From Syntrophomonas sp. DTU019 (GTDB lineage: Bacteria; Bacillota; Syntrophomonadia; Syntrophomonadales; Syntrophomonadaceae), in assembly GCA_001512785.1 (NCBI GenBank), contig LFSQ01000038.1, positions 1 through 38,831 on the forward strand: a stretch of DNA of 38,831 nucleotides. The letters run 5' to 3'. The notes under the pieces are model-generated. The model was not told where the DNA came from. It saw only the letters and a list, made by a program, of their open reading frames with translations, and searched no databases. Made by a program: the position numbers and the translations under genes. Below are positions 18,518 through 23,376 of the stretch, piece after piece. The stretch's first letter is position 1. The number at the start of each line of letters is the position of its first letter.

Positions 18518-18858
18518 GCTTCTCTTCCCATCCTGCCTGGCATTATTTTGCCGGGATACGGGTAAATCCCCGCAGCAGTGCCAGGAAACTGCCGGTATTT
18601 CCCGGTTATATAATTCCGGCCGGTCATACTTTGTTCCGGGCTAATTGCCTTATGCCGGTGTAATTCGGCACGGGTACAGGGATAGTCCTGCACGCTCCGC
18701 GAAGTCGCACAGCAAAGCCAAATTGACTCATTGAGTCGGTCAAAAGCAGCTTCATGGCGAGGGCAGTTTTTAACATAACCAATTATTATTTAATGTATAA
18801 TCATCTATATGATATAGTAGGGTTAGACACAGATTAACAAGCCGAAAGGATGAGAGCA
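18518..18858 (+). promoter_or_regulatory. Intergenic region upstream of yedF with promoter-like elements
   Basis: About 340 bp with no gene. It contains a 13-bp palindrome GACTCA-T-TGAGTC at 18725-18737 and an A/T-rich tract with TATAAT at 18796-18801, a likely -10 for yedF; no -35 with correct spacing is clear. The palindrome could be an operator. Confidence 0.4.
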
Positions 18859-19431
18859 TTGCCGTACAAAATAGATGCCCGGGGTTTAAACTGCCCTGAA
18901 CCGGTAATTCTCACCAAGAAGGGCATAGACCTGGGTGAGGAGCATATTGAGATAGTGGTGGACAATCTGGCTGCACGGGAGAATGTCAGCAAAATGGGCA
19001 TCAGCCAGGGTTATGAGGTAAATGTTGAAGAAAAGGGTGAGGAATTCCACATCACCCTGTTGAAAAAAGCCGCTTCCCGGGTCGCCGCAGAACCGAGCCA
19101 GGAGGTTTCGATTTTGGTCAAAAGCGATCTCTTCGGGAACGGCGACGTTGAGTTGGGGCAGACCCTGATGAAAAGCTTTTTATACACCTTAAATGAGACC
19201 GCCGGGGTAAAATATGTGGTATTCATGAACCGTGGGGTCTTGCTGACCATCGCCGGCTCTCCGGTGCTGGACCATTTAGAGGCCCTGGAAGAAAAAGGGG
19301 TGTCGGTTTTGAGCTGCGGCACCTGTCTGGATTATTATCAGGTCAGGGATCAGCTGGCGGTAGGAGCGGTCACCAACATGTATTCTGCCCTGGAGATTCT
19401 GACCAGTACAGCGCGCAACCTCACCATTTAA
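18859..19431 (+). CDS. yedF: YedF-type selenium metabolism protein (TusA plus DsrE domains)
   Basis: The protein has a TusA-like domain with the conserved cysteine (IDARGLNCPEPVILTKKGI, residues 3-75) and a DsrE-like domain (85-190) with SCGTCLDYYQVRDQLAVGAVTNMY. This architecture is the YedF family, which is found with selenium-handling genes and selD. A TTG at 18859 preceded by AAAGGA gives the typical N-terminus; an ATG at 18850 sits on top of the ribosome binding site. The next gene, 19 bp downstream, is a cysteine desulfurase-like enzyme, suggesting joint sulfur/selenium transfer. A second, degenerate copy lies at 4647-5234. Confidence 0.88.
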   Translation: MPYKIDARGLNCPEPVILTKKGIDLGEEHIEIVVDNLAARENVSKMGISQGYEVNVEEKGEEFHITLLKKAASRVAAEPSQEVSILVKSDLFGNGDVELGQTLMKSFLYTLNETAGVKYVVFMNRGVLLTIAGSPVLDHLEALEEKGVSVLSCGTCLDYYQVRDQLAVGAVTNMYSALEILTSTARNLTI

Positions 19432-19450
19432 AAGAAGGCAGGTACTTTAA

Positions 19451-20590
19451 ATGATTTATATGGACAATGCCGCTACCAGTTTTCCCAAGCCGGAAGCGGT
19501 ATACCGGGCAATTGATCATTTTAACCGCAACCTCGGGGGCAGTCCGGGGCGGGGCAGTCATCAATCCACATTGAGAGCAGGGGCCATCCTGCTGGAATGC
19601 CGGGAATTGCTGGCCAGATTGTTCAATATTGGCGATGCCGCCCAAATTGCCTTTACCGCCAATATTACTGAAGCCATCAATATCGGGCTAAAAGGGGTGC
19701 TTAAGCCGGGTGATCACATCATTACCAGCAGCATGGAGCATAATGCTGTAGCCCGCCCGCTGCATGCACTGACCCGGCAGGGTATTGAATGGACCAGGAT
19801 TCCCTGTGGCCCGGATGGCAGTTTGGATCCGGCTGACATCGAGCCGGGCATCAAGGCCAATACTCGTATGATCTGCATGCTGCATGCCTCTAACCTGACC
19901 GGAACCATCCTTCCCATCGCGGAGGTGGGGAGAATCGCCGCCCGGCATGGGCTGATTTTTATGGTGGACAGCGCTCAGACCGCAGGTGTGCTCCCCATCG
20001 ATGTAGAGCAGTATCATATAGATATTCTTACCTTTACCGGCCATAAAAGCCTGTTGGGGCCTCAGGGAACAGGGGGTATTTATGTTGATCCCCGCATCGA
20101 GCTAGGCCTGCTCAAAGAAGGCGGTACGGGATCCTCTTCCGAGCTCCTGGATCAACCTGTAACCATGCCGGATCGGCTGGAATCCGGTACCCCTAATACA
20201 CCTGGTATCGCCGGGCTGGCTGCCGGGGTTAATTTCATTTTAAAAACCGGCCTGGAGGTTATTCGCCGCCATGAGCGGGAGCTTACCGATATACTGATCC
20301 GTGAGCTTAGCCGTATACCCGGTCTTTCAATCTACGGTCCGCTTGACAGCCGGCGGCAGACCGCGATAGTATCCTTCAACATCGATGGGATTGATTGCGG
20401 GGAAGTGAGTCTACGTTTGGACCAGGATTATGGCATCATAACCCGTTCGGGAATGCACTGTGCCCCATTGGCGCATCAGACCATAGGCACATTTGAGCGG
20501 GGGGCTTGTAGAATAAGCCCGGGCTTTTTCAATACTATTGATGAAGTTGAAAAGGTTATCGAGGCCGTGTGGCATATGGCCAGAACATGA
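19451..20590 (+). CDS. Class V aminotransferase, cysteine desulfurase family
   Basis: The 379-residue PLP enzyme begins MIYMDNAATSFPKPEAVY, with the PLP lysine in LTFTGHKSLLGPQGTGGIYV and the persulfide cysteine in SGMHCAPLAHQTIGT. These features fit the SufS/CsdB-like subfamily that often neighbours yedF and selD. It would release sulfur (or selenium from selenocysteine) to an acceptor, likely the YedF upstream. Transcription ends at the strong terminator at 20752. Confidence 0.9.
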   Translation: MIYMDNAATSFPKPEAVYRAIDHFNRNLGGSPGRGSHQSTLRAGAILLECRELLARLFNIGDAAQIAFTANITEAINIGLKGVLKPGDHIITSSMEHNAVARPLHALTRQGIEWTRIPCGPDGSLDPADIEPGIKANTRMICMLHASNLTGTILPIAEVGRIAARHGLIFMVDSAQTAGVLPIDVEQYHIDILTFTGHKSLLGPQGTGGIYVDPRIELGLLKEGGTGSSSELLDQPVTMPDRLESGTPNTPGIAGLAAGVNFILKTGLEVIRRHERELTDILIRELSRIPGLSIYGPLDSRRQTAIVSFNIDGIDCGEVSLRLDQDYGIITRSGMHCAPLAHQTIGTFERGACRISPGFFNTIDEVEKVIEAVWHMART

Positions 20591-22174: not shown

Positions 22175-22228
22175 GTATAATATAAGGGTAGTGTATACAG
22201 AAATATATGCAAAATAGGAGGATATAGA
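22175..22228 (+). promoter_or_regulatory. -10 element and ribosome binding site of the TGA-containing gene
   Basis: A TATAAT sits near 22177-22182 with no good -35, and TAGGAGG at 22215-22221 lies seven bases before the ATG at 22229. The strong ribosome binding site supports translation from this ATG, upstream of the in-frame TGA. Confidence 0.55.
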
Positions 22229-22567
22229 ATGAGCTCGGAGGTCATTAGGGTTGAGGTATATCAAGGCGTATCTCCCGCTATGGGGTGAAGCTGTTCAACG
22301 GGTTGTACACTCGGAGACAGTTGTGGAGCAACTGATGCGGAAGCAGTGGAATTACTTCAGGCCGAATTACAGCGAGTATATGGAGATAGAGTACAGTTTG
22401 CCTGCATAGATACCACTCAAACCTCACTTGATTCATTCCCGCTGATATCGCGTGTAGTACAAATGGGTTACAATTTCCCCATTACAGCCATCAATGGAAA
22501 ACCGCGCCTGGCTGGAGGGATAGATATCGACCAGATTAAAAACTTGCTGGACGAGATTTTACCATAG
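22229..22567 (+). CDS. Candidate selenoprotein, thioredoxin-like (in-frame TGA at codon 20)
   Basis: Reading from ATG 22229, codon 20 is TGA (22286-22288), followed without interruption by coding sequence to TAG 22565-22567, giving 112 residues if TGA is Sec. The local motif is PAMG-U-SCSTGC, a Sec-x-Cys pair at the position expected for the redox centre of a thioredoxin-like fold. The remainder (AEAVELLQAELQRVYGD, FACIDTTQ, NFPITAINGKPRLAGGID) resembles YuzD-like small thioredoxin-fold proteins, including the cis-Pro region before a strand. The strong ribosome binding site lies before the TGA, so readthrough is needed. A GTG at 22346 would remove the redox motif. A suitable SECIS-like hairpin follows the TGA. 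Confidence 0.75.
22286..22334 (+). promoter_or_regulatory. Putative bacterial SECIS element
   Basis: After the TGA (22286-22288), CAGTTG (22318-22323) pairs perfectly with CAACTG (22329-22334) around a loop UGGAG. The loop starts 36 nt after the UGA (35 intervening), within the 16-37 nt range described for bacterial SECIS, and carries the G residues expected in the apical loop. A weaker alternative hairpin (22293-22308, loop CGGG) lies closer. Confidence 0.55.
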
Positions 22568-22578
22568 GGTGCAGCGCT

Positions 22579-23376
22579 TTGAAGCAGGAAAGAGAGGAAA
22601 AAACGGGAAAAAGTGAAGATAGCAGGCATCACCCGCTTGAGGGTCTGGTATGTCTGGTAACCGGGGCCTCCCGGGGTATCGGCAGGGCTATTGCCACGGC
22701 TGTGGCTGCTGCCGGGGCTGCGGTAGCCATAAATTACCATCATTCGGAAAAGGCTGCCTTAGCCCTGAAAGAAGAATTGACCGCCAGCGGGAGGCAGGCT
22801 ATAGCAGTTCAGGCAGACGTGAGCGATGCAGCCATGGTTGACCTTATGTTCTTGCAGGTAGAAGAGCAGCTGGGTACAGTGGACCTGCTGGTGAATAATG
22901 CCGGCATCGCTTTTAAAGCCCTGTTGACCGACACCACAGATGAGGATTGGGCCAGGTTATTGGCTGTTAACCTTACCGGGCCGTTTCTCTGTTCACGCCG
23001 GGCTTTACCCTCGATGATACGCAAGCGTTTCGGCCGCATCGTCAATATCGCCTCTATGCAGGGCGTATGTGGAGCATCCTGTGAGGCTGCCTATGCCGCT
23101 TCCAAAGGCGGGCTGATCGCTCTGAGCAAATCCCTGGCGGCGGAGGTGGGACCTTCAGGCATTACCGTAAATGCCATTGCGCCGGGGCCGGTTTTCACCG
23201 ATATGCTGTGCCAGGACCTCGATGAAGGAGAGCTGGCCGAGCTGCTATCATTGCTGCCGGTAGGGCGCTGGGGGCAGCCGGAGGACATCGCCCGGGCCTG
23301 CCTGTTTTTACTGTCGCCTCAAAATTCCTTTGTCAATGGAAGCGTACTGGCTTTAGACGGCGGCTGGAAGGCCTGA
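22579..23376 (+). CDS. Short-chain dehydrogenase/reductase, FabG-like
   Basis: The 265-residue protein has the classical SDR motifs: TGASRGIGRAIA (cofactor), NNAGIAF, the Ser of VNIASMQG and YAASKGG (YxxxK), then APGPVFTDM. It would be an NAD(P)-dependent 3-ketoacyl-ACP or other keto reductase. The TTG start at 22579, 11 bp after the selenoprotein candidate, has a weak ribosome binding site, so coupling to the upstream gene is possible. A 24-residue charged extension precedes the Rossmann fold, and the true start might lie within it. Not in a fatty-acid operon, so the substrate is open. Confidence 0.88.
   Translation: MKQEREEKTGKSEDSRHHPLEGLVCLVTGASRGIGRAIATAVAAAGAAVAINYHHSEKAALALKEELTASGRQAIAVQADVSDAAMVDLMFLQVEEQLGTVDLLVNNAGIAFKALLTDTTDEDWARLLAVNLTGPFLCSRRALPSMIRKRFGRIVNIASMQGVCGASCEAAYAASKGGLIALSKSLAAEVGPSGITVNAIAPGPVFTDMLCQDLDEGELAELLSLLPVGRWGQPEDIARACLFLLSPQNSFVNGSVLALDGGWKA

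Follow-up and report, generated by a model that had tools for sequence, protein, structure and literature searches.

A probable selenoprotein gene of thioredoxin-like fold in Syntrophomonas, with homologs elsewhere in the Bacillota

The reading frame at 22229-22567 and its neighbors

We analyzed a stretch of 38,831 nucleotides from Syntrophomonas sp. DTU019 (contig LFSQ01000038.1, forward strand), here called the window. The window contains a frame that runs from ATG to TAG (22565-22567) and has an in-frame TGA at codon 20 (Table 1). A sequence-only reading had pointed to this frame as a candidate selenoprotein gene, citing a strongly primed ATG, the TGA, several Cys codons next to it, and a perfect 6-bp stem with the loop TGGAG beginning 35 nt past the TGA. 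All of these are present. The residues around the TGA are G-U-S-C-S-T-G-C in the translation that spans it. Gene finders end such genes at the TGA, so that the proteins are missing from annotation or are truncated.

Table 1. Features of the window at and near the proposed selenoprotein gene
Feature	Position	Strand	Basis or remark
yedF, selenium-metabolism protein	18850..19431	+	TIGR03527, 199 bits vs cut-off 110
EF2568-type PLP cysteine desulfurase-like protein	19451..20590	+	TIGR01977, 485 bits vs cut-off 377
Shine-Dalgarno-like AGGAGG	22216..22221	+	before ATG 22229; read directly
Selenoprotein gene (proposed)	22229..22567	+	112 codons, ATG to TAG; TGA-spanning translation, full-length homolog alignment
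In-frame TGA, codon 20, proposed selenocysteine	22286..22288	+	column is Cys in 37/38 Cys-form genes, TGA in 36
Cys22 codon	22292..22294	+	possible partner of Sec20 (Sec-x-Cys); not conserved family-wide
Bacterial SECIS candidate CAGTTG-TGGAG-CAACTG	22318..22334	+	6/6 pairs, covariation in Sec homologs
Cys32 codon, second conserved Cys column	22322..22324	+	in at least 90% of 52 sequences; Sec in GGUGP group
Pro84 codon, probable cis-proline place of thioredoxin fold	22478..22480	+	invariant in alignments A1, A3 and A10
SDR/3-oxoacyl-ACP-reductase-like gene	22579..23376	+	PF13561, PF00106; 11 nt after selenoprotein stop

The YedF-type protein that had been reported from the window is encoded upstream of the frame, followed by a PLP-dependent desulfurase-like gene. 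This pair (18850-20590) is syntenic in four genomes of the genus. The desulfurase-like protein also resembles the selenocysteine lyase SclA (389 bits, below the cut-off of 525). The copy of the family with the TGA (Sec copy) lies, in the genus, downstream of yedF and the PLP enzyme gene, between a yaaH-type gene and fabG-/M24-type genes, and the same SDR-type gene follows it in two other genomes of the genus. A scan of the window found no tRNA and no Rfam family.

Conservation of the TGA, decoding machinery and hairpin

Homologs were found in 42 of 63 genomes of the order (protein search) and in 81 of 399 genomes sampled from the phylum (profile search). Those with names belong to Syntrophomonas and other Syntrophomonadaceae, and include S. 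wolfei subsp. methylbutyratica, S. palmitatica and S. zehnderi. S. wolfei has a TGA form, in the genome to which locus L015 belongs. A distant homolog beyond the Bacillota, in a Chloroflexi MAG, is 31% identical over residues 21-110. A search of a viral collection gave one short, marginal match.

Translation of about 100 loci gave a mixture of Cys forms and TGA forms. Among 95 aligned family genes there were 57 in-frame TGAs and a single TAA or TAG. All 57 TGAs fall on columns that are Cys in homologs. Four columns are used in this way: 36 TGAs are on the column of the window TGA (alignment column 41) and 17 are on the second Cys column. This count is slightly low because two further loci (L121 and L154), not scored as Sec, carry a TGA shortly before the part that was matched. 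The Cys forms have Cys at both main columns in nearly all cases, and the one that lacks Cys at the column of the window TGA has a gap there. In a tree of the family 20 changes between Sec and Cys are needed, at least five of them forced by well-supported branches (the tree was built on 103 columns, and many of its forks are unresolved).

In S. palmitatica, Sec and Cys copies of the family lie in tandem (L038 and L180). One Cys form (L017, genome G030) has an in-frame TAG ahead of its Cys motif, and is either a broken gene or a sequence error.

The DNA downstream of the TGA is under purifying selection. The dN/dS after the TGA, computable for eleven pairs of Sec genes, ranged from 0 to 0.23, and it was 0.23 for the window gene and its nearest homolog (L003). 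Substitutions after the TGA are concentrated at third codon positions. In the standard bacterial code TGA ends translation, and the frame could in principle be a pseudogene or an unused open reading frame that ends at codon 20. The dN/dS values and the retention of the TGA at a single Cys column in many genera contradict this, as does the near lack of other stops among the 95 genes. In addition, the gene is present in Syntrophomonas isolates as well as in MAGs. We regard an ordinary stop as extremely improbable.

The machinery for selenocysteine insertion is present in the source genome. The 2.17 Mb assembly encodes SelB and SelA, a tRNA-Sec (74 bits vs a cut-off of 47), and a SelD that has an in-frame TGA of its own. 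Within the order, SelB was found in 30 of 31 genomes with a TGA form; the exception (G050, with the TGA form L053) has no SelB match and is 92% complete. Outside the order, all 25 of the TGA-bearing genomes tested have SelB. Nine genomes tested there that lack SelB have only forms without a TGA. The proposal that the frame encodes a selenoprotein is thus supported both by the machinery in its genome and by the Cys in its homologs.

The frame is open whichever residue is inserted at the TGA, and a reassigned code or plain readthrough could place some other amino acid there. However, TGA forms track SelB and none occurs in the tested genomes that lack it, the TGA exchanges with Cys codons, and the neighbors of the gene in the window translate into complete known proteins with the usual code. 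The covarying hairpin described below also matches the layout of a bacterial SECIS. Insertion of a residue other than selenocysteine is very unlikely.

The window hairpin agrees in layout with a published model of the bacterial SECIS (a stem no shorter than 4 bp, a loop of 3-9 nt with a G among its first two bases, and a spacing of 16-37 nt; PMC13188914). Its predicted free energy (-7.1 kcal/mol for 20 nt) falls just short of the published limit of -7.5 kcal/mol or lower, and a different fold is predicted for a longer stretch around it. The hairpins of four near Sec homologs (L003, L004, L005 and L007) have values from -8.8 to -10.2 kcal/mol. By itself, a hairpin of this quality is unremarkable, a point in favor of an ordinary stop: of the 1,360 TGA triplets in the window, 6.9% score as well with the bacterial SECIS model. 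Across the family, 39 of 59 Sec genes have a model hairpin at or below -5 kcal/mol; the share for the TGAs of the window as a whole is 10.3%.

We compared pairing in a fixed register, anchored at the C-G codons so that there was no freedom of search, with the pairing expected from synonymous recoding. In 40 Sec genes the mean was 5.0 of 6 pairs, and 3.1 were expected. In contrast, the mean in 37 Cys genes was 3.1 pairs, and 3.0 were expected. The covariation score of the Sec genes (0.319) was reached by none of 500 shuffles. Kinship among genes can inflate such a score; the Cys genes, a control taken from the same family, had hairpin covariation that was not significant relative to shuffles. 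Sec and Cys genes differed less clearly in the simple free energy of the 48 nt that follow the TGA, and we therefore used the measure of the hairpin in register. Some Sec homologs (for example L031 and L038) have no hairpin in this register. What goes beyond chance is the conservation of the TGA on Cys columns together with hairpin covariation confined to Sec genes, and not the hairpin alone.

A Cys form from S. zehnderi OL-4 (L010 and L162) has a perfect SECIS-like hairpin, TAGTTG-TGGAA-CAACTA. It looks like a relic, as if Sec had recently been swapped for Cys.

A second group of homologs, with the motif GGUGP, has a covarying hairpin of its own. Comparison of profiles from this group and from the window group gave a probability of 99.7, with the first and second Cys columns of both aligned alike; Cys32 of the window group is paired with the Sec column of the GGUGP group. 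The Sec-x-Cys motif proposed in the sequence-only reading therefore holds for the window protein and not for the family as a whole, because the family places Sec at either of the two conserved Cys columns, in one group at the second.

Based on these results, the window gene is very likely a genuine selenoprotein gene. The case is computational, and combines conservation of the TGA, exchange of Cys and Sec, selection, the covarying hairpin, the machinery, and the predicted fold. We put the probability that selenocysteine is inserted at the TGA, and that the product is a thiol protein with a thioredoxin fold, at roughly 0.85, a figure that does not extend to the reductant role considered below. 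The UGA at codon 20 would be decoded as selenocysteine by tRNA-Sec and SelB, presumably assisted by the hairpin whose loop starts 35 nt downstream.

Predicted fold and possible functions

The model of the window protein has the order b-a-b-a-b-b-a (pLDDT 79), in agreement with the earlier suggestion that the protein is thioredoxin-like. Residue 20 is placed in the loop that leads into helix 1, and Pro84 directly precedes the strand at residues 85-88. The active loop (residues 17-34, including the Sec) was modeled with low confidence. The best match in the PDB is 1xg8 (E 1.8e-4, probability 1.00, TM 0.57-0.59), which is also the best sequence-profile match (E 1.3e-6). For the GGUGP group, 1xg8 was again first, with the model as well as with the profile, and ArsD structures were among the next matches to the model.

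The product would be a protein of 112 residues with the thioredoxin fold, in which an active loop between strand 1 and helix 1 carries Sec20, Cys22, Cys26 and Cys32. Sec20 would most likely form a reversible selenenylsulfide with Cys22 or Cys32, and the protein may act as a small thiol-disulfide reductant or as a thiol-based carrier. The fold, the cysteines and the neighbors of family genes suggest thiol/selenol redox chemistry or metalloid handling. We hold a reductant role, as opposed to metalloid or sulfur handling, tentatively, at somewhat less than an even chance.

The neighbors of homologs are diverse. In 16 of 29 fetched loci a family gene precedes miaB in the same orientation, and in 13 of them the two are 23-335 nt apart; in most of these 16 loci a ylbF/ymcA-type gene and then a mutS-like gene follow (mutS was named by position and sequence, with no profile search). 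Elsewhere, family members adjoin genes for ACR3, ArsP-like proteins, ArsR or ArsA, thioredoxin reductase, or queC. Thiol, sulfur and metalloid chemistry are each compatible with these contexts, which do not choose among them.

The link to miaB, together with a distant member (L131) that is followed by an MtaB-like gene, could mean that the selenoprotein works for MiaB and other radical-SAM methylthiotransferases, as a reductant, a sulfur donor or an Fe-S helper. In the genus of the window, however, the copy linked to miaB is a Cys paralog and the Sec copy is elsewhere, and genes that are neighbors in an operon may have only expression in common. We think that such a role is unlikely.

A further reading, less likely than not but more probable than service to MiaB, is that the selenoprotein binds a metalloid such as arsenite and passes it on, in the manner of ArsD. 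ArsD (PF06953, NF033727) resembles the family in its thioredoxin-like fold, its N-terminal cluster of Cys, and the arsenic genes beside some members (the ACR3 arsenite efflux protein, an ArsP-like permease, ArsR regulators and ArsA ATPases), and the family has a cluster of at least three Cys or Sec residues. The structural matches of the GGUGP model to ArsD are accompanied by weak matches of that group to the ArsD profile. In contrast to ArsD, the window gene is outside any arsenic operon. The window protein has no match to NF033727, the best family member among those shown is far under the cut-off (24.4 bits vs 90), and other members adjoin thioredoxin reductase or miaB. We favor, slightly, the redox role over metalloid or sulfur handling.

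Relation to known families

The family is probably an unlisted one. Neither Pfam nor NCBIfam has a model that matches the window protein at its cut-off, and matches across the family are weak only (judged by score against cut-off for the first member, and for the rest by E-values and by ten proteins scored separately). A 2026 catalog of prokaryotic selenoproteins has 119 families or subfamilies (PMC13188914), and its table lists no family with these features; its entries consist of names, domains and motifs and include no alignments, and absence from the catalog is therefore likely and not proven. A 2006 survey described ten selenoproteins of S. wolfei, none of them as this one. Besides peroxiredoxin, the only thioredoxin-like candidate there is a 'distant Prx-like thiol:disulfide oxidoreductase', which we set beside the window protein by description alone. 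Searches of the literature on YuzD and DUF1462, on ArsD with selenoproteins, and on S. wolfei with selenocysteine found no report of the family among the papers that were listed.

A broader notion, for which we would give slightly less than even odds, is that thioredoxin-fold selenoproteins across the Bacillota form a large superfamily, unlisted and sister to YuzD and ArsD, that has Sec on either member of one conserved Cys pair and connects selenium with the handling of arsenic and with the methylthiolation of tRNA. If the proposed selenoprotein family is real, anaerobic Bacillota, syntrophs among them, gain a common selenoprotein. The family would also be a natural case of Sec on opposite members of one Cys pair, of use in studying what selenium contributes to a thioredoxin fold.

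Among known proteins, YuzD (DUF1462, PF07315; S. aureus SA0789, the protein of 1xg8) has the same thioredoxin-like fold and a similar length, and a Cys of YuzD aligns with Cys32 of the window protein. The window protein scores 16.8 bits with PF07315, under the gathering cut-off of 25. We know of no selenoprotein in DUF1462, and a search of the literature on YuzD and DUF1462 found no report of one. DUF1462 and ArsD were earlier assigned to the thioredoxin-like clan (PMC3091736). The HUIPC thioredoxin-like selenoprotein (NF047660) is also small and thioredoxin-like, and 18 of 52 family members have weak matches to it (best E 0.0094). However, the window protein has no match, and the HUIPC motif is absent from the sequences that we read. 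The Brachyspira proteins Sec.1 and Sec.2 (PF13192) likewise have a thioredoxin domain and Cys or Sec near the N terminus, and the motif of Sec.2 is listed as UxC. PF13192 has matches in 10 of 52 family members (best E 0.037) and none in the window protein. In the Brachyspira proteins the Sec is in an extension that precedes the thioredoxin domain, whereas in the window protein it is predicted to be within the fold, between strand 1 and helix 1.
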